Assembly: GCF_020400605.1 (NCBI RefSeq)
Contig: NZ_JAINRD010000002.1
Location: 62,001 to 126,000 of the forward strand
Source: Streptomyces aculeolatus
Lineage (GTDB): Bacteria > Actinomycetota > Actinomycetes > Streptomycetales > Streptomycetaceae
Direction of reading: 5' to 3'
Length of the DNA stretch: 64,000 nucleotides
Position numbers and translations under genes: made by a program. Position 1 is the stretch's first letter. Every line of letters starts with the position of its first letter. The notes beneath the pieces were generated by a model. That model did not search any database, had not been told where the DNA came from, and saw only the letters and a program-made list of their open reading frames with translations. This document shows, one piece after another, positions 4,544 through 18,655 of this stretch.

Positions 4544-5515
4544 TCAGATCGCCTCCTCCAGGGGGCGCAGGGCGATGCCGGGGGCCTCCTCGGGGGTGGC
4601 GAGATGGGGCTCGTTGCGGCTGGCCCAGGCTTCGTAGCCGTCACTGTGATTGAGGCAGTTGTTCGCCGCCACCCGTGCGACTGACCGTTCCTGCGGCGAC
4701 AGCTCCATCAGTTCGCTCTCGCGTTCGACGGCTGCCGGCATGCGGTGGAGCCGGTCGCTGTAGTCGAAGAGGAGGCTCTGGAAGTACGCGAACGCTTCCT
4801 CCTGGCCGACGTCCTGATGGCGCATGTGCTGGGCGACCGGATTGCGATGGTCGCCGACCTTGTGGTCGCGGAGCGCCGAATACAGGTCATTGGTCAGGAT
4901 GACGCAGTAGTAGGTCAGGCGCCGCATGGTCACCAGGGAGGGCATCCTGTAGAGGTGGGCCGGAATGTGGCGGGTGTTGGCGAGCTCTCCCTGTGAGATC
5001 GCCACATGCAGACCCCCGTTGTCGATGCGCAGACTCAGGTAATCCTCCAGATTCCAGGGATAGGCGGGCTTGCTCATCGCGTGGTAGGTGCTCTGCGTGG
5101 CGAAGTAGTGCCGCCAGTGACCTGCGGTGCGCGCAAGGAACTCGGGCGGGCACACCTGTTCGTGTTCCTGCCACAGGCTGTGGAACATCCACAGGACGGC
5201 GGCGTCAGCCGCGGGCTTCTCCCCGTCGAGGACGCGGATCATCTGATTGGCAACCCTGCGGCTGGTGTGCAGATCGTTGTGGAGCGAGTCGTTGAAATCG
5301 TCGTAGAAACGGTAGAAGGCATAGATCTTCGCAAGGATCGTCTGCCGCTCCGAGACGATGTCGGGGTGGACCCAGGGGAAGAAGGTCATGTATCGCAGGA
5401 CGCGAGGGTTGTCGGCGCCGAACCGGCGGATCCAGTTCGTAGCCGAAGCGATTGCGCGGGGATCCAGCACGCCAGGGACGAACCGCTGTGCGTGCGAGGT
5501 CAGAAGAGGGTGCAT
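4544..5515 (-). CDS. Class I terpene synthase
   Basis: 323 residues, the typical size of bacterial mono/sesquiterpene cyclases. The metal-binding aspartate motif is FYDDFNDS (DDxxD) near residues 70-76. The NSE-type motif reads NDLYSALRD near 207-215, with Asp in place of the final Glu. A GGAGG box lies eight nt before the ATG at 5515. It would cyclise a prenyl diphosphate (probably FPP or GPP) in the cytoplasm. It follows a P450 gene by 54 nt on the same strand, a gene pair that usually makes an oxidised terpenoid. The DDFND/NDLYSALRD pair differs from epi-isozizaene synthase (DDRHD), geosmin and 2-MIB synthases, so none of those products is claimed. The product is unknown. Confidence 0.85.
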   Translation of the reverse strand: MHPLLTSHAQRFVPGVLDPRAIASATNWIRRFGADNPRVLRYMTFFPWVHPDIVSERQTILAKIYAFYRFYDDFNDSLHNDLHTSRRVANQMIRVLDGEKPAADAAVLWMFHSLWQEHEQVCPPEFLARTAGHWRHYFATQSTYHAMSKPAYPWNLEDYLSLRIDNGGLHVAISQGELANTRHIPAHLYRMPSLVTMRRLTYYCVILTNDLYSALRDHKVGDHRNPVAQHMRHQDVGQEEAFAYFQSLLFDYSDRLHRMPAAVERESELMELSPQERSVARVAANNCLNHSDGYEAWASRNEPHLATPEEAPGIALRPLEEAI

Positions 5516-5569
5516 CGGGAGTCCTCCAGGATATTGGGCGTCGGCGGTGCCGAACCCTCCCCATGGCGC

Positions 5570-6910
5570 TCAGCGTGGTGCGACTGTGCAGTGCAATTCC
5601 GGAATCCGGGCGATCAGGCCGTAACGGAAACGCGCAGGTGCAGGGGGATTCTGTACCAGCTTCCAGCGGCGGCAGGCGGCCAGCAGAAAGGTGAAGATCT
5701 CCATTTCCGCGAACTGCGCGCCCATGCACACGTGCGGACCCAGTCCGAAAGGAATATAGGAACCCTTCGGCAGCCCTTTCGTGCTCCCGTCCCGCCAACG
5801 GTCCGGATCGAATGCATGAGGACGGGGGAACACGTCCGGCCGTCGGTGCAGCGCCATGGGGGCGATGATCAGTTCGGTCCCGGCGGGAACCACGACGCGC
5901 CCCAGTCGCACATCCCGCAGAGCGCGGCGAGGCAGCAGCCAGGTGGGGTTGTACAGCCGCAGCACTTCCCTGACGAACGACCGTGTGAAAGGTGCCTGCT
6001 CCAGCGTTTCCAGACGCACGGGTCCCTCGCCGACGGCGTCCACCTCATGATGTATGCGCTCCCGCATGTGCGCATGTCGGTCCATGAGCCAGAAGATGCT
6101 GGTCAACGCCGATGACGTGGTCTCGTGCCCGGCGATCATGAGTGACATCACCTCGTCCCGCATCAACTTCCGCGGAACCTTCTCGCCGGTCTCCGGAATC
6201 CGGTAGTCGAGCATGTGACTCAGAAGATCGAACCGGTCGCCCGGTCCGGGGGGATTCTCACAGTAGGAGGCAACGAGCTCCTCGATCGTACCCTTGAGCT
6301 GCTCGACAGCCAGACGCGCTCTCTTGTTCGCGGGAAGCGGTAACCGGAAGAGGAGTTCGGGAAGCACCAGGTACCGGATCAGCCCGTACAGAACCTCGGG
6401 TACGGCCTTTCGTACCCGGTCGGCCAGATCGGGGTGTGACTGAGCCGGCAGTAACGTGCCCACGATGACCCGGATCGTGTAGTCGACCATCGCCCGGTCC
6501 ACGCGGACTGTCTGCCCCCGGGGCCAGGCGTCGACGCAACGGAGCGCGAGATCATGCATGACCTCCCCGTACCGCTCCAGCCTGCTGGGCTGCAACGAGG
6601 GGCGCAGCATGCGGCGCTGCATTCGATGGTCATCGCCCGAAGTCAGTCCGACTCCCTCACCGGCGAGCGGCTTCATCTTCTCGAACAGGGCGCCCTTCTC
6701 GAACTCATCGTTCTGCACGTGCAGCACTTCGTGCACCAGCGCCGGGTCACTCACATAAAGAAACAGCCGGCTACCGAAATACATGCGCACCATGGGTCCG
6801 ACCGGTGCGAGTGACTCCATGAAACGGACCGGTTCCCGGAGAAACGCCGGCGCGTGCCCGACCACCGGAAACCGGCCTGGGGCAAGGGGAATGCGCACAG
6901 CGAACACCAT
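5570..6910 (-). CDS. Cytochrome P450, likely terpenoid oxidase
   Basis: A soluble bacterial P450 of about 446 residues starting MVFAVRIPLAPGRFPVVGH. A GTG 42 nt upstream is an alternative start; neither has a strong ribosome site. I-helix oxygen-activation motif is AGHETTS near residue 257, the K-helix is EVLR near 313, and the heme loop is PFGLGPHVCMG with the proximal Cys near 393. His replaces the commoner Arg in FGxGxRxC, as in many actinobacterial P450s. It lies immediately upstream of the terpene synthase and probably hydroxylates or oxidises that product, resembling the layout of albaflavenone genes (CYP170A1 with epi-isozizaene synthase). No ferredoxin gene is adjacent, so electrons must come from elsewhere. 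Confidence 0.9.
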   Translation of the reverse strand: MVFAVRIPLAPGRFPVVGHAPAFLREPVRFMESLAPVGPMVRMYFGSRLFLYVSDPALVHEVLHVQNDEFEKGALFEKMKPLAGEGVGLTSGDDHRMQRRMLRPSLQPSRLERYGEVMHDLALRCVDAWPRGQTVRVDRAMVDYTIRVIVGTLLPAQSHPDLADRVRKAVPEVLYGLIRYLVLPELLFRLPLPANKRARLAVEQLKGTIEELVASYCENPPGPGDRFDLLSHMLDYRIPETGEKVPRKLMRDEVMSLMIAGHETTSSALTSIFWLMDRHAHMRERIHHEVDAVGEGPVRLETLEQAPFTRSFVREVLRLYNPTWLLPRRALRDVRLGRVVVPAGTELIIAPMALHRRPDVFPRPHAFDPDRWRDGSTKGLPKGSYIPFGLGPHVCMGAQFAEMEIFTFLLAACRRWKLVQNPPAPARFRYGLIARIPELHCTVAPR

Positions 6911-7130
6911 CCCGAGTCGCGCTGACGAGGACCATGTCGAACTGGGCCGCACCGGTCCTTGCGGGCCGCATGCTCGCAGGTAACGCTACCGTCGCCGAGA
7001 GACCCTGTGTAGTGTGCATCCGGACGTTGCCCGGGGGCTGGGGATGACGTTCTCCGAACCAACACGCCGCTTGTCGATCTTTTTGAAACGTGCACGGCAG
7101 ACCCGGACCGGCGCCCGGCCGGGAAACCGC

Positions 7131-10100
7131 CTAAGAACGCGCGGATGAGACGTACGACGCCTTCACCGCCTCCCAGCGCTCCGTCTGCCGCGCCGTCAGC
7201 CGGCCGCGCAGTTCCGCGAGTTTCAGCAGGTTCGCCTCCGCGTCCTGCGCGAGCATCTGGGCCTCGCCCAGGTAGTGGTCGTCGATCAGCGCCTCCACCT
7301 CGTCGTCGTTCATCACCGGCATGATCCGCTCGGCGAGCTTGTTGGTGTTCCGGTACGAGCCCTGCAGCTTGAACGGCGGTTCCGTGCGCGAGGCGTCGGT
7401 CTGCGCCGCGGAGGCGATGTAGGCCGCGTTGACCGTGAGCACGGTCTGCCGCACGTGCAGCAGCCTGCGCAGCACGCCGAGGATCTGGTCCAGCTCGGCC
7501 GTGGCGTACGGGTGGGCGAGGCGGTCGGCGCGGGCGTCGGCGTCGCCGTGGGCGAGGCGGACCAGCAGGTCGATGTCGGTGCGCTCCCGGGACGCCAGCG
7601 GCGCCAGCACGGGGTTGGCGGTGAGCGCGTTCTCGATGTGGCTGAGGGCGAACAGCCGCTCCCTGCCGGACAGGACGTCGCCGAGGTTCCAGACGTCGGC
7701 GCGGTTGGCGAGCATGTCCGGTACCTGGAAGCGGGCGCCGGACTCGGTGAACGGATTGCCCGCCATGCACACCGCGAAGCGCTTCCCGCGCAGGTCGTAG
7801 ACGCGTGAGGCGCCGTCCCACACGCCCTCCATGCGGCGCTGCGCGTCGCAGAGCGAGACGAACCGCTGCAGCAGCTCCGGCGACGTGTGCTGGATGTCGT
7901 CGAGGTGGAGCAGGGTGTTGTTGCCCATGGCGAGGGCGAAGTTGATCTTCTCGACCTCCCGGCGGGCGGCGGCGTCCGGGGCCGCGGCCGGGTCGAGGGA
8001 GGTGGTGCCGGTGCCCAGCGCCGGGCCGTCGACCTTGACGAAGACCAGGCCGAGCCGCGCGGCGACGTACTCCATCAGCGACGTCTTGCCGTACCCCGGC
8101 GGGGAGAGCAGGAGCAGCAGCCCCTGGCTGTCGGTGCGGCGCGCGCCGGACTCGCCCCCGGCGGCGCCGAGCTGCCGGGCGAGGTTGTCGCCGACGAGCG
8201 GCAGGTACACCTCGTCCAGGAGGCGGTTGCGGACGAACGTCGGCATGACGCGCGGGCGGTACGCGTCCAGGCGCAGCCGCTCGCGTTCCGCGCCGACGAG
8301 GGCGGTGCGGCGGCGGAGGTACGCCCGGTAGGCCGGCACCCGTACGTCGCGGAACTCGCCGGTGCGGGTGAGGAACTCGTCCAGGCGCACCGCGAGCCGC
8401 CCGCCGTCGATGCGGCGGTGCGCGCCGAGCAGCCCGTCGACGGCCGTCCCGGTGGCGGCGTCGGAGTCCTGCCGGGCGAGGGCGTCGCCGGTGGCCTCCG
8501 CGGCCACGGCCTCCGCGAGGTACCAGGCGTCGGCGCCCGTGCCGGCCGCGTACGCGCCGAGCCAGGCGGCGGCGAGCTGGTGGCGGGCGGCGGGGTCGCC
8601 GGCGAGGGCGTCGAGGTCGTGCTCGTACTCCTTGGCGGCGCCCGCGCCGAGCGCGTCCCGGAAACCGGTGCGCAGGCCGCGGGCGGCGGGGCTGGTGACG
8701 AACGCGGGCGGGTCCGCGGCGCCCAGTTCCTCGAAGAGGTAGGCGCCGACGCCGGCCGGGGCCGGCGCGCCCGGGCAGGGGAGCCCCGCCGCGGCGAGGA
8801 ACTCCGCCGCGCGGGCGGCCAGTTCCGCCGCCGGCTCCGCCGCGGCGCCGTCGCCGCCGAACGTCGCCCGCGCGCGGGCCAGCGACCGGGCCCGCGTCGA
8901 CCAGCCGGCCCGCTCCTCCGCCCCGGTCCCGTACGCCCAGAACAGCTGCGCCGCGGCCCGGACCTCCGGCGTGAACCGCAGCAGGCCGCACTCCTCCCGC
9001 AGCCGCAGCAGCGCGCCGAGGATCGCGGCGGCGTCCCGGTCGTGGACCCCGCGGTCGTACCCCTCGTCGTACGCCTCCTCCGCCGCCCGGCGCGCCAGCT
9101 CCGGCAGGCCGCCGCCCGCGGCCGCCGCCGCCAGCTCCGCGGCCGGCGTGCCGGCGAGCAGCCGCGCCGCCAGGTACTCGCCGCGGTAGACCGCCGGCGA
9201 CTCGGAGACCAGCGGCTCGTCCCAGAAGGCGCGGGTCGCCGCGAAGCCGGGGTCCGCCACCGGCGCCCGGTAGTCCGTGCCGGTGATCACGAACACCGGC
9301 TGCCCGTCCTGCGGCACCAGCGTCAGCTCCGCCGGGCGGGTGTCGACGGCGAACCGGTGCCGCCCCAGGCGCAGCGTCCCCTGCCCGTCGTAGAGGTCGG
9401 TGCGGTCGCGCAGGGCCCGGGCCGCCTCCTGGCGGGCGGCCTTGAGCCGCCCCTCCAGCTCCTCGGCGTGCACCGTGCCGCCGAGCGTGCGCAGCTCCGC
9501 CGCGGTGCTACGGACCTTGGCCACCAACGGGTCGGAGGCGAAGAAGGTGTGGACGTCGTCCGCCGACGGCAGCGCCGCCGCCCGGCGGGAGACGGTGCCG
9601 AGGATCCGCCCGGCGGACCGCGCCAGCCGGTCGGCGTGCCGGGCACGCTCGTCGAGCTGCGTCTGCTTGCGGGCGGAGAACGCCTCGTAGACCTCCTCGC
9701 GCTTCGCGGCGATCTGCTCGGCGAAGTCCTCCGCGGAGCCGAACTTCGCCTCCAGGTTCTCCAGCCGCAGCATGAGCCGGCCCAGTTGGTCGTCGCAGTC
9801 CTCCGGCGTGCCGGCCGCGGCCAGCCCTCCGGTCACCGCCTGCCCCAGCAGCGCGAACTCGGCGGCGAACTCGGCCCTGCCCTCGCGCTCGTGCAGTTCG
9901 CGGCGGCGGCCGTCCAGCAGGGCGCGGGCCCGGTTGGCGGCGCCGAGCACCTCGCCGATACGGGCGAGGATCGAGGTCCGTACGGTCGCGTCCGCCAGGT
10001 CGAGCGTGCCGACGACCTCGGTGACCGCCTGCAGCGCGCCGGCCTGCTCGTCGATGCGCTCGGCGACCGGTGCCGCCGCCGCGGCCGTCCCGACCGTGGC

Positions 10101-12092
10101 GGCCTCGGCGGCAAGCTCGTCGACGGCCCGGTGGGCGGCGTCGAACGCGGTCTCCTCGCCGAGGAACGCCACCGCGCGGCGGCCGAAGGCCGCGACCGAC
10201 TCGGCGAGCTGCGCGTCGAGTTCGCCGATGCGGGCCAGGTCGGCGTAGCGCTGCTCGCGCAGTGTCTCCAGGCGGCCCTGGGAGCGGCGGAGCCCGGCGA
10301 GCCGGCGCACCCAGCCGTCGGCGGTGTCCGGGGCGGTGCCCCGGGCCCGGCGCACCTGGCCGGTGATCCGTTCGGCGGCCTCGGCGACCGCCGCGGCGGC
10401 CTGGGCACGCAGCTCCTCGACGCGCCCGAACTCGTCGATGACCTGCGCGGCGGTGGTACGGACGGCCGCCAGCGGCTCGGCGAGGTCCCCGCAGGCCGCC
10501 TCGCCCAGCCAGTGGTGGCGGTCGGCGACGCGGACGGCGGCGGCGACGATGGCCTCGAAGACGGCGCCGTTCGGCTCCATCCCGTCGGCCATCCGGGCCA
10601 CCGACAGGCAGTCGGAGACTCCCCGTACGAGTTCGGCGTTGCCGATCCGGGCGAGGGGCCCGGTGCCGGCGGGCCGGGCGGCGGCGTAGGCGTCCGAGAC
10701 GTACGGCGTGCGCCAGACCTGCACGGGGTGGACGCGGGTCGGCTCGCTGCCGGCCGCCGTCCTGAAGACGATCAGCGTGCCGTCGTCGAGGAGCGACCAG
10801 CCGCGCGTCTGCCAGAGGGTGGCGACCTCCTTGCGGATGACGTTGTACGGCAGCAGCAGGGTGCGGCCCTCGGTGCGGGCGTGGAAGACGTAGAGGACGT
10901 CCTCGCCGTTCGGGGAGCGGACGAGGCCCTCGTATGCGAGGTCCTTCGTCTCGGTGTCGAAGGTCCGCGCGGCGCTGCCCGCGGGGACGTCGGCGAGGTA
11001 GTAGCCGCCGGGGAAGACGACGCCCTGCTCGTCGGGCAGCCGGCGGCACCCCCGGCCGAGGCCGTCGAGCCGGACGACCTCCGCGGTGCGGGTGTTGTAG
11101 ACGAGGTGGCGGCGGGTCTTCTCGTTGTACGGGAGGATCCGCAGCAGGACGAGCGGGCCCACGACGGCGTACTCGATCTCGGCGTCCGCGAGCGACTGCA
11201 GCGGTTCGTCCACGGGCTCGCTGTGGATGCCGGTGCCGGTGTCGGTGCTGTCCTCGGCCTTGAGGGTGAGGGTGCCGCCGACGCACGCGACGAAGACCAG
11301 GCCGCGGACGGAGACGTGCGGGTGGCGGCCCTGCACATGGTCCGCGCGGGTGGTGGCCGTCCACTCGACGTCGTCGGCGGGCCGGACGGCGTGGTCGCGT
11401 TCGCCGCGGTCGTCGACGTAGGCGACGGAGCCGTCGGGGGCGAGGCGCCAGCGCAGCACGCGGATGTCGGTGGGCGCGTTGCCGGTCCGGAAGACGGCGA
11501 GGAGGTGGGAGCGGGCCAGGCGCAGCTGGAGGAGCCGGGTCTCGCGGTAGTAGCGGTACAGCTCGGCGAAGTCCCGGCGGAAGGCGGGGTCGTCGAGCAG
11601 ACCGGGTACGGAGTCCTGGGGCGCGGCGCGGAACCGTATCGCCGCGCCGTCCCCGCCGCCCCCGTCCGTGTCCGGGCCCGCGTCGCCGGCCCCGCTTCCG
11701 CCGCCTTCCGCGCCCTTCCCGCCGTCCTCGTCGGACCCGGTGGCCCCGGTGGACCCGGCGAACTCCAGGTGCTGCAACGAGAACACGTCGCCGACGCCCG
11801 TCCCGGGGCCGCGGCCGGCGGGGGCGTTGGAGCCGAACAGCAGCATGCCGCCGATCTGCACGATGTCGCGGGGCACGCAGTCGTGGTCGGTCCGGATGTG
11901 CCCGGTGCCCGCGAGCCGCGCCCCGGAGCCGCCGAACTCCGCCACGCGGCGGGCGTTGAGCGCCTCCGTCCGGCGGGCCAGCTCCTCGGCGGCGGTGCGC
12001 AGCCGGTCTCGCAGCACCTCGTACGTGCCGGCCGTCAGGGCGTCCGGGCTGCCGTGTACCTCCGGCGCGGGGGTCTCCACCTCGTCCTCCAC
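7131..12092 (-). CDS. Giant AAA+ 'DNA repair ATPase' (DUF3686-like) associated with flotillin
   Basis: 1653 residues. Residues about 60-480 are beta-rich, with repeated FVACVGG-, HLVYNTRTAEVV- and VLYVFHARTEG-like strands that suggest a propeller-like region. Residues about 530-900 are Ala/Glu/Arg-rich coiled coil. The C-terminal third is an AAA+ module with Walker A SPPGYGKTS near 1332, Walker B LLHLDDIQH near 1398 and sensor region MAGNPFTESG near 1444. The family is annotated as a DNA-repair ATPase, but no direct repair chemistry is visible. The gene follows flotillin and the NfeD/YqiJ-like gene in one operon (48-nt gap), suggesting an ATP-driven partner of a membrane microdomain. GTG start at 12092; a second GTG at 12080 with GGAGGA upstream is possible. 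Confidence 0.85.
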   Translation of the reverse strand: MEDEVETPAPEVHGSPDALTAGTYEVLRDRLRTAAEELARRTEALNARRVAEFGGSGARLAGTGHIRTDHDCVPRDIVQIGGMLLFGSNAPAGRGPGTGVGDVFSLQHLEFAGSTGATGSDEDGGKGAEGGGSGAGDAGPDTDGGGGDGAAIRFRAAPQDSVPGLLDDPAFRRDFAELYRYYRETRLLQLRLARSHLLAVFRTGNAPTDIRVLRWRLAPDGSVAYVDDRGERDHAVRPADDVEWTATTRADHVQGRHPHVSVRGLVFVACVGGTLTLKAEDSTDTGTGIHSEPVDEPLQSLADAEIEYAVVGPLVLLRILPYNEKTRRHLVYNTRTAEVVRLDGLGRGCRRLPDEQGVVFPGGYYLADVPAGSAARTFDTETKDLAYEGLVRSPNGEDVLYVFHARTEGRTLLLPYNVIRKEVATLWQTRGWSLLDDGTLIVFRTAAGSEPTRVHPVQVWRTPYVSDAYAAARPAGTGPLARIGNAELVRGVSDCLSVARMADGMEPNGAVFEAIVAAAVRVADRHHWLGEAACGDLAEPLAAVRTTAAQVIDEFGRVEELRAQAAAAVAEAAERITGQVRRARGTAPDTADGWVRRLAGLRRSQGRLETLREQRYADLARIGELDAQLAESVAAFGRRAVAFLGEETAFDAAHRAVDELAAEAATVGTAAAAAPVAERIDEQAGALQAVTEVVGTLDLADATVRTSILARIGEVLGAANRARALLDGRRRELHEREGRAEFAAEFALLGQAVTGGLAAAGTPEDCDDQLGRLMLRLENLEAKFGSAEDFAEQIAAKREEVYEAFSARKQTQLDERARHADRLARSAGRILGTVSRRAAALPSADDVHTFFASDPLVAKVRSTAAELRTLGGTVHAEELEGRLKAARQEAARALRDRTDLYDGQGTLRLGRHRFAVDTRPAELTLVPQDGQPVFVITGTDYRAPVADPGFAATRAFWDEPLVSESPAVYRGEYLAARLLAGTPAAELAAAAAGGGLPELARRAAEEAYDEGYDRGVHDRDAAAILGALLRLREECGLLRFTPEVRAAAQLFWAYGTGAEERAGWSTRARSLARARATFGGDGAAAEPAAELAARAAEFLAAAGLPCPGAPAPAGVGAYLFEELGAADPPAFVTSPAARGLRTGFRDALGAGAAKEYEHDLDALAGDPAARHQLAAAWLGAYAAGTGADAWYLAEAVAAEATGDALARQDSDAATGTAVDGLLGAHRRIDGGRLAVRLDEFLTRTGEFRDVRVPAYRAYLRRRTALVGAERERLRLDAYRPRVMPTFVRNRLLDEVYLPLVGDNLARQLGAAGGESGARRTDSQGLLLLLSPPGYGKTSLMEYVAARLGLVFVKVDGPALGTGTTSLDPAAAPDAAARREVEKINFALAMGNNTLLHLDDIQHTSPELLQRFVSLCDAQRRMEGVWDGASRVYDLRGKRFAVCMAGNPFTESGARFQVPDMLANRADVWNLGDVLSGRERLFALSHIENALTANPVLAPLASRERTDIDLLVRLAHGDADARADRLAHPYATAELDQILGVLRRLLHVRQTVLTVNAAYIASAAQTDASRTEPPFKLQGSYRNTNKLAERIMPVMNDDEVEALIDDHYLGEAQMLAQDAEANLLKLAELRGRLTARQTERWEAVKASYVSSARS

Positions 12093-12140
12093 CTCGTTCT
12101 CGTCGTCCGTTCCCGTCGTCCCCGTCCCCGTCGCCCGGAG

Positions 12141-14180
12141 CTACTCCTTGACCAGGGAAGGCGCCCCGTTGACCGCCGCCCGGCCGGCCAGTGCCGCGAC
12201 CGGGAGATCCGCCGCACCGCTCGCCCGGGCCGCCTCCAGCAGCCCCGTCAGTGCCGCGGTGTGCGGACCGTCCGCCGCGATGAGGCGGGTGAGCAGGCCG
12301 GCGAGGCTCAGGTCCCGCAGGCCCGTCGCGCCGAGGCCGGCCGTCATCGCCGTCAGGTCGGACGTGAACGTGCTGTCGGGCCGCAGCCACGGACCCGCCA
12401 GCGCCTGCACCGACTCGGAGCTGCCGACGAAGCCGTCGACGCTCTTGCCCATCGACACGGCGTTCACCAGCTTGTCGAAGAAGACGCTGTCGCCGCCGAC
12501 GATGCTGATGTCCGCGTTCTCCAGCCCGGTGGCGAGCACCGTCGCCTGCGCCTCGGCGATCTGGCGGCCCACGTCGACCTGCGCCAGCCGGATGTCCTTC
12601 TCCGCCTCCAGCCGCAGCCGGTACTCCTCGTGCTCCCTGCTGGCGGCGTCCAGCGCGGCCATCGCCGCGGCCTTCTCGTTGATGCCCGCGGCCTCCGCCC
12701 GGAACTTCTCCCGCATCCCCTCGGCGCCGGCGAGGGCCTTGTCCCGCTCCACGTCGGCCTCCGCCCTGCCGACCTTGGCGATGGCCTCCGCGCTGCGCTC
12801 CTGCACCTGGGCGGCGGCGAGCCCGGCGGCTGCCGCGTCCGCCTGCTTGCCCTCGGCCAGCCGGATGGCCGCCGCCGCGTCCAGCTCGGCGGCCTTGCGC
12901 CGGGCCTCCGCCATGGTGAGCTCCTCCGCGGCCCGGTGGTCCGCCGCCTGCTCGGCGGCCTCTGCGGCCTTGATGTCCTTGACCAGCCGCTCCTGCGCCT
13001 CCGCCTCCGCGGCGATGATCAGCGCCTGGCGCTCGCGCTCGGCCTCCTCGACCGTACGCAGCTTCTTGATCTCCTCCTCCTGCTGCGCCACGGTCTTCTC
13101 GACCGCGATCCTCTCGCGTACGACGTCGGCGATGTCCCGCTTCTCGCCCTCGACCTCCTTGTCCTTGGCGATCCGGGACAGTTCGGTCGCCCGCTCCCGG
13201 GCGATGACCTCCAGCAGCCGGTCCTTCTCGATCTTCTCGTTCTCGATGGCGACGACGCGCTCCCGGTTGAGCTGTGCGACGGCGATCTCGCGCTCGCGGT
13301 TCTCGTTCTGGATGCCGAGCTGCTCCTCGGTCCTGATGTGCGCGGTGTGCGCCTTGAGCCGCTCCTCGGCCTGGACCTTGGACGTCTCGGCCTCCTCCCG
13401 CGCCCGTACGATCCCGACCTCGCGCTGCTGCTTCGCCTCGGCGTCGGCCTGGCGGCGCTCCAGTTCGAGGACCGCCTCGCGGGCCTCGACGTTCTTGCGG
13501 GTGATCTCCTTCTCCTCGTCGCGCCGCAGCTCGTTGGTGCGCACGTTCTCCACCGCGGTCAGCTCGGTGATCTTCCGGATGCCCTGGGCGTCGAGGATGT
13601 TCTGGGCGTCGAGCTGGGCCATCGGGGTCTGCTCGAGGTAGTCGATGGCGGCGTCCTCGAGGCTGTAGCCGTTCAGGTCGGTGCCGATGACGCGGATGAT
13701 CCGGTCGCGGAACTCGTCGCGCTTGGTGTAGAGGTCGGCGAAGTCGAGCTGCTTGCCGACGGTCTTGAGGGCCTCCGAGAACTTGGCGTTGAACAGCTGC
13801 TGCAACGTGTCCTGGTCGCTGGCCCGCTCGGTGCCGATCGCCTGCGCCACCTTGATGACGTCCTCGACGGTCTTGTTGACCCGGACGAAGAACGAGATGC
13901 GGATGTCGGCGCGGATGTTGTCCTGGCAGATCAGCCCTTCCTTGCCGGTCCGCTCGATCTCCATGGTCTTCACGGAGATGTCCATCAGCTCGGCCTTGTG
14001 CAGCACCGGCAGCACCACGGTGCCGGTGAAGGTCACGTCGACCTTGCGCATCTTGGAGACGATGAGTGCGTGGCCCTGGCGCACCTTGCGGAACAGCCGG
14101 CTCACGGCGAACAGCAGCGCGAGGGCGATGAGCAGGACCACGGCTACGAGCACGCCGAGCCCCGTGGTGATGGCAGTCAT
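12141..14180 (-). CDS. Flotillin / SPFH-band 7 protein (YqiK-like)
   Basis: 679 residues. There is one N-terminal membrane segment at about 7-27. An SPFH domain (residues about 30-210) contains KVDVTFTGTVVLPVLHKAE and the block ADIRISFFVRVNKTVEDV. A roughly 300-residue Glu/Ala/Arg coiled coil with repeated EAEAQERL/AEARRKAAE heptads follows, then a flotillin C-terminal region (LENADISIVGGDSVFFDKL). Flotillins form oligomeric scaffolds on fluid-ordered membrane patches. The ATG at 14180 is preceded by AGAAGGAAG. The gene lies between the NfeD/YqiJ-like protein and the giant AAA+ ATPase, all on the minus strand with 48 and 34 nt gaps. E. coli yqiJ-yqiK is the known two-gene counterpart, and the ATPase is the third member here. 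Confidence 0.93.
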   Translation of the reverse strand: MTAITTGLGVLVAVVLLIALALLFAVSRLFRKVRQGHALIVSKMRKVDVTFTGTVVLPVLHKAELMDISVKTMEIERTGKEGLICQDNIRADIRISFFVRVNKTVEDVIKVAQAIGTERASDQDTLQQLFNAKFSEALKTVGKQLDFADLYTKRDEFRDRIIRVIGTDLNGYSLEDAAIDYLEQTPMAQLDAQNILDAQGIRKITELTAVENVRTNELRRDEEKEITRKNVEAREAVLELERRQADAEAKQQREVGIVRAREEAETSKVQAEERLKAHTAHIRTEEQLGIQNENREREIAVAQLNRERVVAIENEKIEKDRLLEVIARERATELSRIAKDKEVEGEKRDIADVVRERIAVEKTVAQQEEEIKKLRTVEEAERERQALIIAAEAEAQERLVKDIKAAEAAEQAADHRAAEELTMAEARRKAAELDAAAAIRLAEGKQADAAAAGLAAAQVQERSAEAIAKVGRAEADVERDKALAGAEGMREKFRAEAAGINEKAAAMAALDAASREHEEYRLRLEAEKDIRLAQVDVGRQIAEAQATVLATGLENADISIVGGDSVFFDKLVNAVSMGKSVDGFVGSSESVQALAGPWLRPDSTFTSDLTAMTAGLGATGLRDLSLAGLLTRLIAADGPHTAALTGLLEAARASGAADLPVAALAGRAAVNGAPSLVKE

Positions 14181-14214
14181 GGGTACTTCCTTCTCTGCGG
14201 TACGGACGTGCGTG

Positions 14215-14880
14215 TCAGCCGAAGGAGCCGGAGGCGTCGGGGACGCCGTCGGCGGGTGCGACGCGGAAGAACTCGCCTTCGGCGTCGTAGTCGAAGATCA
14301 GCGCGCGGCTGCCGGCGGCGAGGCCGTTGCCGGCGTCCGCCCTGACCTGGACGGTCGCGCTGGAGCCGTCGGCCGCGGTCACCTCCGCCTGGCCGTACGC
14401 GGGCGTGACGCCCGAGGTGCGCACGACGCAGGTGCGGCCGACGAAGTCGCGGCGGCCGACCGGCCTGCCGGTGCCGCCGAGGCGGCGCAGCGGGCGGGCC
14501 AGCAGCCAGGTGGCGTACCAGCCGGCGGCCAGGGCCAGCACCAGGCCCGCCGTCCTGGCCGGCCAGGCGAGCCACGCGGGCGGCCCGGCGGCGCCGACGG
14601 CCACTCCGGCGGCCAGGGCGGTGAACCAGGCCACCGCGACGACCAGCGACAGCACCACCGTCACCGGCACGCCGCCGAGCCCGAGGGCGGCCGGCAGGAG
14701 GGTGAACCCGCCCGCGCCGCGGCCGCCTGCCGCCATGTCGCCGTCCGCGCCGTCCGCGCCGACGGCGTCACCGACGAGGCCGGTCACCGCGGCGAGCAGC
14801 CAGTAGGCGATCACGACGAGCAGCGCGAAGCTGAAGACGACGGCCGGAAAGCCCAGCGCCGCATCCACGAAAGCACCCAT
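14215..14880 (-). CDS. NfeD/YqiJ-like membrane protein with C-terminal OB fold
   Basis: 221 residues from the ATG at 14880, with GGAGGGGG just upstream. Much longer frames through this stretch are shadows of the divergent gvp genes. Hydrophobic segments lie near residues 8-35, 70-95 and 102-122, giving about three membrane passes. A beta-rich C-terminal domain follows (RRDFVGRTCVVRTSGVTP... GQAEVTAADGSSATVQVRA... SRALIFDYDAEGEFFRV), typical of NfeD-type OB folds. Such proteins are encoded next to flotillins and are thought to partner them in membrane stress adaptation. It is the first gene of the flotillin-ATPase operon and is divergent from gvpO across about 276 nt. Confidence 0.85.
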   Translation of the reverse strand: MGAFVDAALGFPAVVFSFALLVVIAYWLLAAVTGLVGDAVGADGADGDMAAGGRGAGGFTLLPAALGLGGVPVTVVLSLVVAVAWFTALAAGVAVGAAGPPAWLAWPARTAGLVLALAAGWYATWLLARPLRRLGGTGRPVGRRDFVGRTCVVRTSGVTPAYGQAEVTAADGSSATVQVRADAGNGLAAGSRALIFDYDAEGEFFRVAPADGVPDASGSFG

Positions 14881-15534: not shown

Positions 15535-16047
15535 ATGTCGACGACCACCACGTACAACGAGGCCGCAGTCTGCGTCCCGCGCGCCGGAACCCTCTACGAC
15601 GTCCTCGAACTGATCCTCGACCGCGGCATGGTCATCGACATCTTCGTCCGGGTGTCGCTCGTCGGCATCGAGATCCTCAAGATCGACGCCCGGATCGTGG
15701 TCGCCAGCGTCGACACCTACCTCCGCTTCGCCGAGGTCTGCAACCGACTCGACCTCAACGAGGACGCCTCCAGCAGGACGGTCCCCGACCTCTTCGCCAG
15801 CATGTCCCGCGGCGTCGCCACCGGCGGGGCCAGGAGGGCCGCCAAGTCCATCGGCGGCCGCGTCAAGGAAGCGGTCGGCATGGACGAGGACGACGACCGT
15901 GAGGACGAGGACGACGAGCGGTTCGAGGAGGAGGAGAAGGAGAAGGCGCCGGCCCGCAAACGCGGCTCGGGCACCCGCTCCACGTCCAGGAAGACCGCCT
16001 CCAAGAAGTCCTCCAGCCGTTCGAGCCGGCACTCCAAGGCGGCGTGA
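15535..16047 (+). CDS. gvpA: Gas vesicle major structural protein GvpA with long charged tail
   Basis: 170 residues. Residues about 18-72 are the GvpA core (DVLELILDRGMVIDIFVRVSLVG then DARIVVASVDTYLRFAEV), which forms the ribbed protein shell. The tail from about residue 85 is unusual for GvpA of cyanobacteria or archaea (about 70 residues total) but is seen in actinobacteria. It holds an amphipathic segment (GGRVKEAVGM), then an acidic run of Asp/Glu, then a Lys/Arg/Ser-rich end (KKSSSRSSRHSKAA). Ribosome site GAGGAAGAG precedes the ATG. Such a tail would project from the shell or affect assembly (inference). Confidence 0.93.
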   Translation: MSTTTTYNEAAVCVPRAGTLYDVLELILDRGMVIDIFVRVSLVGIEILKIDARIVVASVDTYLRFAEVCNRLDLNEDASSRTVPDLFASMSRGVATGGARRAAKSIGGRVKEAVGMDEDDDREDEDDERFEEEEKEKAPARKRGSGTRSTSRKTASKKSSSRSSRHSKAA

Positions 16048-16050
16048 GCG

Positions 16051-16824
16051 GTGGCCTCCCCTCCCCTGTACGTGTACGCCGTCGTCAACGCCGGCCTGGC
16101 CCTGCCGCCCGGCCTCCGGGGCGTGGGCAGGCCGCCCGTCCCGGTCCGGCTGCTGCCCGCGGGCGAACTGGCGGCGGTCGTCAGCGACGTACCTCCCGAC
16201 CTGCGGGCACGCAGGCGCGATCTCACCGGCCACCAGGAACTCCTGCTGGCCCTGTGCGCGGCGGCTCCTGTGCTGCCGATGCGGTTCGGGATGGTCGCCG
16301 ACGGCGCCGGGACGGTACGGCGCGCTCTCGACGCCGCGGCTCCGGCGCACCTCGCCACCCTGGAGCGGCTCGACCGCCGCACCGAGATGAACCTCAAGGC
16401 CATGCCGGCCCAGGACGGTGTGGCGGCCCTCGTACGGGACGACCCGGCCGTCCGGCGGCTGGCCGCGGACGTCCGCCGGCGGCCGTCCTACGAGGGCAAC
16501 GTCCGGCTCGGCTCGGCGATCGCCGAGGGCCTCGCCCGGCGGGCCGCCCAGGCCGCCGACGGTGTCGCGCAGGAGCTGGCGGCGCTCGCCGACGAGCGCG
16601 TTCAGGGCGCCGAGGTGCCCGGGTGCGTACTCAACACCTCCTATCTCCTGCCGCGTGCGCAGGCGGAACGCTGCAGGGAGCTGGTCGACCGCAGGGCCGC
16701 CGAGTTGCGGGACCGGGTGGAGCTGCGGCTGACGGGCCCGCTGCCCTGCTACAGCTTCGTTCCCGTGGAGGGCAGCCGTGTCGCCGCCGGAGCCGCCCCG
16801 CGGCCCGCCGTGGTGAGGAGCTGA
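16051..16824 (+). CDS. gvpF: Gas vesicle protein GvpF/GvpL family (GvpF)
   Basis: 257 residues from a GTG three nt after gvpA. The N-terminus PPLYVYAVVNAG and the block AAAPVLPMRFGMVADG, followed by ERLDRRTEMNLKA, are GvpF/L signatures. The C-terminal domain carries NTSYLLPRAQAERCRELVD and ELRLTGPLPCYSFV. GvpF is a minor protein involved in nucleating or capping the vesicle. It is the closer of two paralogues in this operon to gvpA; GvpL is at 19032-19871. Confidence 0.92.
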   Translation: MASPPLYVYAVVNAGLALPPGLRGVGRPPVPVRLLPAGELAAVVSDVPPDLRARRRDLTGHQELLLALCAAAPVLPMRFGMVADGAGTVRRALDAAAPAHLATLERLDRRTEMNLKAMPAQDGVAALVRDDPAVRRLAADVRRRPSYEGNVRLGSAIAEGLARRAAQAADGVAQELAALADERVQGAEVPGCVLNTSYLLPRAQAERCRELVDRRAAELRDRVELRLTGPLPCYSFVPVEGSRVAAGAAPRPAVVRS

Positions 16825-16825
16825 C

Positions 16826-17143
16826 ATGGGTCTGCTGAGCGGCGTGCTGCTGCTGCCGCTGATGCCGGTACGGGGCGTGGAGTGGGTCGCCGACCGGCTG
16901 CTCGAAGCCGCGGAGCGCGAGGTCTACGACCCGGGCACGCTGCGGGCCCGGCTCGGCGAGCTGAACCGGGCGTACGAGGCGGGGGAGATCGGCGAGGAGG
17001 AGTTCGAACGCGCGGAGGAGCACATTCTCGACCTGCTGGAGCAGCCCGCCGCTGCCCGCCCGGCGGCGCCCGCCCGTCTGGGCGGCACCGACCACCCCGA
17101 CCACCCTATGAGCCAGGAAGTGGGTCATGACAGACAGCCATAA
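16826..17143 (+). CDS. gvpG: Gas vesicle protein GvpG
   Basis: 105 residues. The family core is in the first 75: GLLSGVLLLPLMPVRGVEWVADRLLEAAE, then LGELNRAYEAGEIGEEEFERAEEHILDLL. The Pro/Ala tail is variable. GvpG is a small accessory protein of vesicle assembly. The gene starts 1 nt after gvpF and its 3' end overlaps the next gene by 17 nt, so translation is coupled. Confidence 0.9.
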   Translation: MGLLSGVLLLPLMPVRGVEWVADRLLEAAEREVYDPGTLRARLGELNRAYEAGEIGEEEFERAEEHILDLLEQPAAARPAAPARLGGTDHPDHPMSQEVGHDRQP

Positions 17144-17687
17144 AACGACCGTGCTCGCCGGAGTCGCCGGGGGCTATCTCCTCGGTCGGACGAAGAAGGC
17201 CAAGCTCGCCCTCACCCTCGCCGCGCTGGTGGCGGGGAAGCGGCTCGCCCCGCAGGACCTGCTGGGCAAGGGCGTCCGGAAGATCACCGACACGCCGCAG
17301 CCCGCAGGGCTGTCCGGCCAGGTCACGGACCAGATGATGACGGCCGCGCGGCAGGCGGCCTCCTCGCTCGTCGGCCGCCGGGTCGAGTCCCTCACCGACG
17401 CCCTGCGCGAGCGGACTGACCGCCTCGGCGAAGCGCGCGAGGAGCGCGAGGCCCGGGACACCGGCGAGGAACGGGATGAGGGCGAGGAGGACGAGGGCGG
17501 CGACCGCCGCGCCGAAGCCTCGAAGCGGAGGTCCTCGGCGCGCAGGAAGACGGCGGACAACGCCCGGTCCGCCACCTCCGGCCAGCGGAGGAAGACGGCC
17601 CCCGGCGACGGGCGCGGCAGCCGCGGCACCGCGAAGAGCTCCGGCGCGAAGGCCACCGACCGGCCGTCCAGGAGGCAGAGGTCATGA
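17127..17687 (+). CDS. gvpY: GvpY-type accessory protein
   Basis: 186 residues. The first 40 form a hydrophobic, Gly-rich segment (TTVLAGVAGGYLLGRTKKAKLALTLAALVAG). The middle has an amphipathic helix (LSGQVTDQMMTAARQAASSLVGRRVESLTDALRERTD). The C-terminal half is low-complexity acid then Arg/Lys/Ser-rich. No enzyme domain is visible. The name is assigned by position: in the S. coelicolor gvp operon the gene between gvpG and gvpZ is gvpY. It overlaps both neighbours. The function is unknown beyond membership of the gas-vesicle operon. Confidence 0.75.
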   Translation: MTDSHKTTVLAGVAGGYLLGRTKKAKLALTLAALVAGKRLAPQDLLGKGVRKITDTPQPAGLSGQVTDQMMTAARQAASSLVGRRVESLTDALRERTDRLGEAREEREARDTGEERDEGEEDEGGDRRAEASKRRSSARRKTADNARSATSGQRRKTAPGDGRGSRGTAKSSGAKATDRPSRRQRS

Positions 17688-18655
17688 CACCACAGCGCGA
17701 AGGTGCGCACACCGATGACAGCGGCGGCCCCTCGCCCCTCGAGCGCCTGCGTAGCGAGCTCCTCGAGTACGTGGGTGCGGTCGGCAGGCATGCGATCGGC
17801 AAGGCCACCGACAAGCTCACCGGCATCGCCGACCCAGGCAAGCTCGGGGACGGCGGCGGCGCTCTGGCCGAGACCGCCGCACGCGCCGTCAAGGGCGAGA
17901 GTCCCGTGAAGGCGCTGGCCACCGAGAAGGCGAAGGAGGCCAAGGACAAGGTCACGGGGAAGGCGAAGGAGGCCCTCGGCGCCGAAGACGGCCAGAGCAA
18001 GCCGGGGGACCTCAAGGCCATCAACATCATCGAGCACGTCGACATCGGCCGCCCGCTGCGCGTGGTCTACGACCACTTCACGCAGTTCGAGGAGTTCGGC
18101 GGCTTCATGAACGGCGTCAGCAACGTCACCCGGGACCCGGAGGACGAGACCAAGACCACCTGGAAGGTGCGGGTCTGGCCCTCCAGCCGCAGCTACGACG
18201 CGACGGTCTCGGAGCAGGTGCCGGACCAGCGGATCGTGTGGTCGTCCGAGGGCTCGAAGGGCACGACGAGCGGTGCCGTGAGCTTCCACCGCCTGGACGA
18301 CGAGTTGACGCGCGTGACCGTGGTCGTCGAGTACTACCCGTCCGGGTTCGTCGAGAAGACCGGCAACATCTGGCGCGCCCAGGGCCGCCGGCTCCGGCTC
18401 GACCTCAAGCACTTCCAGCGCTACGTCACGCTCCAGTCGGAGGAGGCGGAGGGCTGGCGCGGTGAGATCCGCGACGGCGAGGTCGTGCTCAGCCACGAGG
18501 ATGCCCTGGAGGAGGAGCGCGAGGAGGACGAGCAGTACGACGACGAGGACGGTGAGGAAGAGGACGAGGAGGAAGAGGACGAGGAGGAGGGCGAGGACGA
18601 GGAAGAAGAGGAGGACGAGGAGGACGGGCGGCGGCGAGGGGGCCGGCGAAAGTGA
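17684..18655 (+). CDS. gvpZ: GvpZ-type SRPBCC (polyketide cyclase/START-like) protein with acidic tail
   Basis: 323 residues in three parts. Residues 1-105 form an amphipathic Lys/Ala-rich region. Residues about 108-265 are an SRPBCC domain (IEHVDIGRPLRVVYDHFTQF, then NGVSNVTRDPEDETKTTWKV, and later IVWSSEGSKGTTSGAVSFH). The tail from about 278 is almost only Asp and Glu and ends in an Arg/Gly patch. SRPBCC domains form hydrophobic ligand pockets. The poly-acidic tail would make the end strongly negative, perhaps chaperoning shell proteins or binding the basic tail of GvpA (inference). Its ATG overlaps gvpY by 4 nt and its stop overlaps gvpJ by 4 nt. Confidence 0.82.
   Translation: MTPQREGAHTDDSGGPSPLERLRSELLEYVGAVGRHAIGKATDKLTGIADPGKLGDGGGALAETAARAVKGESPVKALATEKAKEAKDKVTGKAKEALGAEDGQSKPGDLKAINIIEHVDIGRPLRVVYDHFTQFEEFGGFMNGVSNVTRDPEDETKTTWKVRVWPSSRSYDATVSEQVPDQRIVWSSEGSKGTTSGAVSFHRLDDELTRVTVVVEYYPSGFVEKTGNIWRAQGRRLRLDLKHFQRYVTLQSEEAEGWRGEIRDGEVVLSHEDALEEEREEDEQYDDEDGEEEDEEEEDEEEGEDEEEEEDEEDGRRRGGRRK

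Follow-up and report, generated by a model that had tools for sequence, protein, structure and literature searches.

A flotillin and a giant DUF3686 AAA+ ATPase are encoded side by side in Streptomyces aculeolatus and other bacteria

Organization of the locus

The DNA studied is a 64,000 nt stretch of the Streptomyces aculeolatus genome (RefSeq assembly GCF_020400605.1, contig NZ_JAINRD010000002.1, positions 62,001–126,000), referred to here as the window. Its positions 7131–14880 contain, on the reverse strand, three consecutive genes arranged head to tail; they code for a small YqiJ/NfeD-like protein, a flotillin and a 1653-residue AAA+ ATPase of the DUF3686 family (the triad; Table 1). The gene for the small protein is separated from that of the flotillin by 34 bases, and the flotillin gene from that of the ATPase by 48 bases, in agreement with an earlier sequence-only reading of the window that had described three tightly spaced genes on one strand. 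A scan for consensus promoters and terminators gave no signal above chance. An open reading frame (ORF) of 2152 amino acids on the strand opposite the triad was read as a shadow of the high GC content. Pfam was run on ten proteins encoded in and around the triad. The flotillin matched Band_7 (E 2e-8) and, by eye, showed an N-terminal hydrophobic stretch and a long, charged, helix-like tail. The assembly (9.0 Mb in 137 contigs) contains a single DUF3686 gene. Eight Band_7 matches were found in it, including the triad flotillin; the other seven lie on other contigs, as do all of the three PspA genes and two PF01957 NfeD genes of this genome.

The ATPase gene is accompanied by a flotillin gene

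The sequence-only reading had taken the three genes for one membrane machine and had suggested a phylogenetic profile. When this was run, the outcome named as contrary to that idea, an ATPase found mostly without a flotillin neighbour, was not observed. Among 121 Streptomyces genomes, ATPase and flotillin were both present in the same 62, both absent from 59, and never present one without the other; one further genome contained a DUF3686 fragment of 23.7 bits, under the family cut-off. In a sample of the phylum DUF3686 was found in 8 of 296 genomes, seven of them from Streptomyces. A set of 157 loci was then compared: 64 came from sampled genomes, 80 from scanning named genomes and 12 from plasmid-collection records, and one was the window. 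From the named-genome scan the 80 best of 578 relatives were kept; all are actinobacterial, and other phyla are therefore represented only by the 12 plasmid-collection records. The loci are not independent, since some named loci appear to duplicate genus loci.

At 154 of the 157 loci, which come from four phyla, a flotillin gene precedes the ATPase gene in the same orientation; the aligned ends of the two genes were 3–1292 bases apart. The three loci without an upstream flotillin (L081, L105 and L137) are all cut by contig ends. The gene order is kept in records from Deinococcus, Proteus, Halomonas, Pseudomonas, Vibrio, Photobacterium and Hymenobacter. Full ATPase sequences were obtained for 153 loci (L137 and three loci lacking both ATPase ends in one ORF were omitted), and 147 of them were distinct at 97% identity; a flotillin accompanies 146 of these, the remaining one being cut by a contig end. 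Flotillins without the ATPase also exist: among 55 plasmid records matching the flotillin, the ATPase was present in the 12 top-ranked ones only. In a flotillin tree, 24 ATPase-linked and 10 unlinked sequences were placed on opposite sides of a branch with 100/100 support, a separation that carries a long-branch warning. That the ATPase-linked flotillins form a branch of their own seems to be new. Together, these observations strongly support the view that flotillin and ATPase constitute one functional unit.

Two individual loci deserve mention. On a Yoonia plasmid (L179:5992-9381), the flotillin is 1129 residues long, about twice the size of other unlinked flotillins, and is followed by genes for SRPBCC and FAD/molybdopterin-binding proteins. 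In genome G128, one of the two DUF3686 copies (locus L024) is split across open frames, which may reflect gene decay or an error in sequencing.

The small membrane protein was not seen at some loci

The 221-residue protein, taken alone, had no Pfam match. However, a profile of 27 of its relatives aligned to eight proteins of other flotillin operons annotated as YqiJ or ‘OB-fold’, with an hhalign probability of 98.7% (E 3e-16), and PF01957 NfeD touched two of the 27 family members weakly (best E 0.0023). It is thus classed, by profile similarity, as a putative YqiJ/NfeD-like membrane protein; the OB fold that the sequence-only reading gave to the membrane partner would follow from the annotation of the matched proteins. 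A hidden Markov model (HMM) detected an NfeD-like gene in 133 of the 157 loci, in 132 of them immediately upstream of the flotillin. The 24 loci without an HMM match comprise 17 Streptomyces loci that were inspected by eye, in which no NfeD-like membrane ORF was seen, and seven at or near contig ends. The NfeD-like protein therefore seems to be dispensable in some loci. As no such ORF was seen in the 17 inspected loci, the strict core of the system is taken to be flotillin plus ATPase, without NfeD; of the three-part machine first proposed, the flotillin–ATPase unit stands, while the third member is not a constant one.

Predicted anatomy of the ATPase

Pfam placed PF12458 (DUF3686) at residues 37-527 of the ATPase (E 7e-175), PF25472 at residues 649-732 and AAA_5 at residues 1326-1449, the domain set being DUF3686, DUF7902 and AAA+. 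AAA_5 matched 8 of 8 family members, and so did AAA_22, AAA and RuvB_N. No protease domain was found by Pfam. AlphaFold models were built from 32-sequence alignments for residues 22-960 (mean predicted local distance difference test score, pLDDT, 83; predicted template modelling score, pTM, 0.58) and for residues 900-1653 (mean pLDDT 89, pTM 0.78). The N-terminal model resembled WD40 beta-propellers modestly, the best match being DCAF1 (Z 9.9, root-mean-square deviation (rmsd) 5.6 over 205 residues); the propeller matches span model residues 37-442. In a Foldseek search with the same model, clathrin heavy chain headed the list with low TM-scores, and only the propeller was relied on. Taken together, the models give the protein a beta-propeller in its DUF3686 part, then an extended helical region and, at the C terminus, the AAA+ module. 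The beta-rich N-terminal half and long coiled coil proposed from sequence have their counterparts in the beta-rich part and long helices of these models.

Structural comparison of the predicted AAA+ module gave as its closest relative the MoxR ATPase CbbQ2 (Z 17.1, rmsd 3.9 over 251 residues), followed by NorQ (Z 14.8–16.1), with alignments to CbbQ and NorQ extending over 225–251 residues; values for dynein and ClpA reached at most 14.1 and 13.5, respectively. The Walker motifs of the module are intact, as had been noted earlier: the Walker A motif SPPGYGKT is identical in all 147 non-redundant homologues, and little variation among them was seen at the positions that we take to be Walker B, sensor 1 and two arginines. 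A conserved motif outside the AAA+ module, G(V/I)HDxD, may represent a metal site or an active site. In Escherichia coli, part of the Proteus ATPase gene gave no match at the DNA level.

Table 1. Coordinates of the triad genes and of regions of the ATPase within the window
Feature	Position	Strand	Basis
DUF3686 AAA+ ATPase, 1653 aa, GTG start	7131-12092	-	ORF; PF12458 E 7e-175
Flotillin (SPFH/Band_7), 679 aa, ATPase-linked branch	12141-14180	-	ORF; Band_7; tree
Putative YqiJ/NfeD-like small membrane protein, 221 aa	14215-14880	-	ORF; profile comparison
Predicted ATPase N-terminal beta-propeller region, ~residues 55-463	10704-11930	-	Predicted model; WD40 matches
Predicted ATPase long helical region, ~residues 480-900, DUF7902 included	9393-10655	-	Pfam and predicted model
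ATPase G(V/I)HDxD motif, residues 1015-1020, conserved	9033-9050	-	Non-redundant homologues
ATPase C-terminal AAA+ module, predicted MoxR-like fold, ~residues 1280-1653	7134-8255	-	Predicted model
Walker A SPPGYGKT, residues 1330-1337	8082-8105	-	Homologue alignment
Walker B LHLDDIQH, residues 1395-1402	7887-7910	-	Homologue alignment

Genes surrounding the ATPase in Streptomyces

Neighbour families were obtained by clustering the flanking genes and were named with Pfam and NCBIfam; clusters below the twelfth were mostly unnamed. In Streptomyces the flank clusters included NhaA, two exchangers of PF00999, one of them adjoining a TrkA_C gene, an ArsB/NhaD-like transporter and a TrkA-N protein; KhtT, KhtU, NhaP and CASTOR are names that may apply to some of these families. 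One or more of six cation-transport families occurred in 41 of 63 Streptomyces loci, compared with 1 of 60 control windows (20 kb). The controls were drawn from 31 genomes, 58 at random and two placed by hand, and L022, which belongs to another genus, was excluded; restricted to these 31 genomes, the count was 19 of 32 loci. In at least 17 of 64 loci NhaA lay no more than 20 kb from the ATPase (0.42 expected), and in 27 of 64 this held for a TrkA-N gene (0.35 expected), the expectations being based on rounded genome sizes. The position and strand of the transporters relative to the ATPase differ among loci, and a FastTree tree of the ATPase (137 rows, these being the loci over 18 kb out of the 153, 20 of them with NhaA) has to be given 12 or more changes to account for the presence of NhaA, indicating that the clustering recurs. 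This antiporter/TrkA-N neighbourhood seems not to have been described before; searches of the literature for NhaA together with flotillin did not return an antiporter link. A pH-response study of Corynebacterium glutamicum (PMC2807442) has a putative flotillin-like protein as a row of a table, with NhaA present as background only.

Among the NhaA matches listed, two classes could be distinguished, with 76–100% and ∼61–72% identity to the query, respectively. Eighteen ATPase loci have NhaA no more than 30 kb away, and at 13 of them the nearest copy, among the matches listed, is of the first class; the query itself comes from such a locus.

A PucR-type regulator (PF13556) was found near 49 of the 63 Streptomyces loci and in none of the 60 control windows. 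It was present in 75 of the 156 loci other than the window, in 51 of these 75 divergent from the operon and just upstream of it (for instance L134:1175-2293); none was found in the window. The PucR-type protein is thus a candidate regulator of the module in Streptomyces. Two other neighbours, a TrpRS (17 of its 18 loci) and an LLM oxidoreductase (15 of 17), came almost entirely from one close group of loci and were read as shared descent; a flank cluster of 24 loci resembled an antisense shadow and was not used.

In the window itself, genes for a cytochrome P450 and a terpene synthase (4544-6952, reverse strand) lie directly downstream of the ATPase gene, in the same orientation, and may form a small terpenoid cluster. 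A gas vesicle cluster (gvpA-like, gvpF/L, gvpG and others; 15535-18655, forward strand) starts divergently from the triad. These neighbours were considered as parts of the module and discarded: none of the 64 genome-sampling loci matched, and in a 92-locus comparison gvpA and gvpF had no match, while P450 had two matches at 26–27% identity that do not correspond to the same gene.

Relation to described systems

Searches of the literature for DUF3686 by name, and for ‘DNA repair ATPase’ together with flotillin or SPFH, found no paper. Nevertheless, the combination of flotillin, YqiJ-like protein and AAA+ ATPase is already in print, and hence is not new. Operons described by Ravi et al. 2024 (PMC11237479) combine a flotillin of the band-7 type, an AAA+ ATPase presented as novel and carrying a coiled coil and a beta-propeller, and a protein of the YqiJ/YuaF kind; a CesT/Tir-PspA dyad may be present or missing. 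The authors propose chaperone-like roles in the assembly of membrane complexes. The earlier statement that no function is established for the combination holds in the literature searched; the combination itself had been reported. From the shared architecture, a Hymenobacter operon and plasmid pQBR103, we infer that their ATPase is the DUF3686 ATPase. In Hymenobacter, genes for a Tir chaperone, PspA, DUF1449, flotillin and the DUF3686 ATPase follow in a row. On pQBR103 (L166), genes for PspA, a rhomboid protease, DUF2491, DUF350, DUF1190 and glutathionylspermidine synthase lie upstream on the same strand. The triad has the same three parts: a Band_7 flotillin adjacent to the ATPase, a YqiJ-profile protein in the operon, and a propeller, helical and AAA+ anatomy that is predicted from models, the propeller match being the modest one given above. 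The CesT/Tir-PspA dyad was not found, and no PspA is present among the ten scanned window proteins; the triad is therefore filed as the abbreviated form, without PspA, of that paper. The MoxR-like fold, the co-occurrence counts and the antiporter neighbours are not mentioned in its section 19.

Flotillin-NfeD operons were defined by Hinderhofer et al. 2009 (PMC2636767) as the SPFH2-NfeD2 type (YuaG-YuaF, YqiK-YqiJ). The triad flotillin is likewise preceded by a small membrane protein of YqiJ profile, but an ATPase goes unmentioned in the available passages of that paper, and flotillins of the triad type branch apart from the 10 unlinked ones. According to the same source, yuaFGI depends on sigma-W, which is inducible by alkaline or osmotic shock, and the growth of yuaG mutants was not impaired under high-salt or alkaline conditions. 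PspA adjoining FloT and NfeD has also been reported (PMC9239133).

MoxR ATPases, including CbbQ, NorQ and RavA, mature or modulate protein complexes and frequently have VWA partners. The triad ATPase resembles CbbQ and NorQ in the predicted fold of its AAA+ module and differs from this group in carrying a propeller and a helical arm on the same chain, in being paired with a flotillin and in that no adjoining VWA partner was found.

FtsH is a membrane-anchored protease, and the triad ATPase differs from it in showing no Pfam protease domain. Both have an AAA+ motor with an SPFH scaffold at the membrane, as in the HflKC-FtsH type of SPFH systems (PMC2636767).

Discussion

The reading preferred here, to which a probability of about one half is assigned, is that the module is a flotillin-anchored, ATP-driven remodelling machine whose MoxR-like motor acts on membrane complexes. 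The flotillin, together with the YqiJ/NfeD-like protein where present, would form a membrane scaffold on which the giant ATPase would dock, probably as a ring of AAA+ modules. Client proteins would be bound by the propeller and the long helical arm, and ATP would be used to remodel or activate membrane complexes in a way similar to maturation by MoxR-type ATPases. In Streptomyces, the clients, or the stress under which the machine acts, would most likely lie in Na+/K+/proton transport. Action at membrane microdomains, as suggested by the sequence-only reading, is plausible by association.

A number of observations weigh against this reading. The lowest NorQ value (Z 14.8) is level with that of dynein (14.1), and Foldseek places RuvB at the top of the list for the AAA+ module. 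In the 60 of 78 matches listed, the AAA+ profile covers mainly the Walker A area of solved structures, and those structures are VCP/Rix7-like proteins and RuvB, not MoxR. The VWA partner usual for MoxR ATPases was not found among the ten scanned proteins in and around the triad. Because of the RuvB ranking, the Walker A-centred profiles and the failure to find a VWA partner nearby, the ATPase is considered MoxR-like in predicted fold only and is not filed as a MoxR member. Regarding the transporters, the six families were picked after being seen near the ATPase, and the Poisson and Fisher values ignore kinship. Two further families, examined later, showed no clear excess: within a 20-kb radius, KdpA was found near 1 of 64 loci (G342, 19 kb away; 0.27 expected, P 0.24), as was MnhE (G401, 9 kb away; 0.14 expected, P 0.13). 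Outside Streptomyces, transporters were present in 4 of 54 loci, two of which are Streptomyces plasmids and two Nocardia, and the window holds none of the searched transporter families.

A different role for the motor, similar to what Ravi et al. propose, is a PspA-linked, ESCRT-like membrane repair in which PspA structures, their protein being encoded elsewhere in the genome, would be assembled or turned over by the ATPase at flotillin patches. The abbreviated operons may indeed cooperate with a PspA from another site in the genome (PMC11237479), PspA is in the same gene run as the module in Hymenobacter and pQBR103, and the window's genome has its three PspA genes away from the triad. Yet a search with the Hymenobacter PspA, which covered the 80 actinobacterial loci taken from named genomes, found PspA in none of them. 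Vps4-type ATPases act on ESCRT-III, whereas the predicted AAA+ fold is closest to MoxR ATPases and not to the Vps4 type, and PspA-linked repair is regarded as rather unlikely. Similarly low odds are given to membrane-protein quality control, with the flotillin holding unfolded membrane proteins and the ATPase adding ATP-driven unfolding or refolding. FloA-NfeD of Staphylococcus aureus stabilises unfolded proteins without ATP (PMC11222466), and the AAA+ module gives Z values of ∼13 with ClpA and Hsp104 modules; however, the ATPase has no Pfam protease domain and no result links the module to misfolded clients.

The sequence-only reading had also allowed for defence, for which no support was found. 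A patchy distribution (62 of 121 Streptomyces genomes) and the 12 copies on plasmid-collection records would fit an anti-phage system, but PADLOC gave weak, partial matches only (E 7e-4 or worse), no relative was found in the phages and viral contigs searched, and no defence gene was recognised among the named neighbour clusters; such a system is very improbable. Even less credible is a DNA repair ATPase: the database name of PF12458 and a weak RuvB similarity of the AAA+ module point that way, while each locus examined that is not cut by a contig end has a membrane scaffold gene next to that of the ATPase, and the recurrent named neighbour clusters are transporters, a regulator and metabolic genes, with no repair gene among them. 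No support was found for DNA repair, the label that, as the sequence-only reading remarked, the ATPase has by family name only.

The remodelling machine could also be conceived, much more tentatively, as an unrecognised class of membrane-complex activases, in which a MoxR-like motor that has lost the usual VWA adaptor would use a flotillin scaffold of its own to reach its clients at the membrane; in Streptomyces these would be the Na+/K+/proton antiporters that recur beside it, and the activase would tune ion and pH balance. This extension is doubtful.

Little phenotype has been seen in several bacterial flotillin mutants, as reported for YuaG and YqiK (PMC2636767) and for PaFlo proteins (PMC13086221). 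A branch of flotillins in one-to-one correspondence with giant ATPases offers a concrete partner to study, and the antiporter neighbourhood in Streptomyces points to salt and pH as a first specific condition. The ‘DNA repair’ label attached to DUF3686, for its part, may be misleading the annotation of this family.

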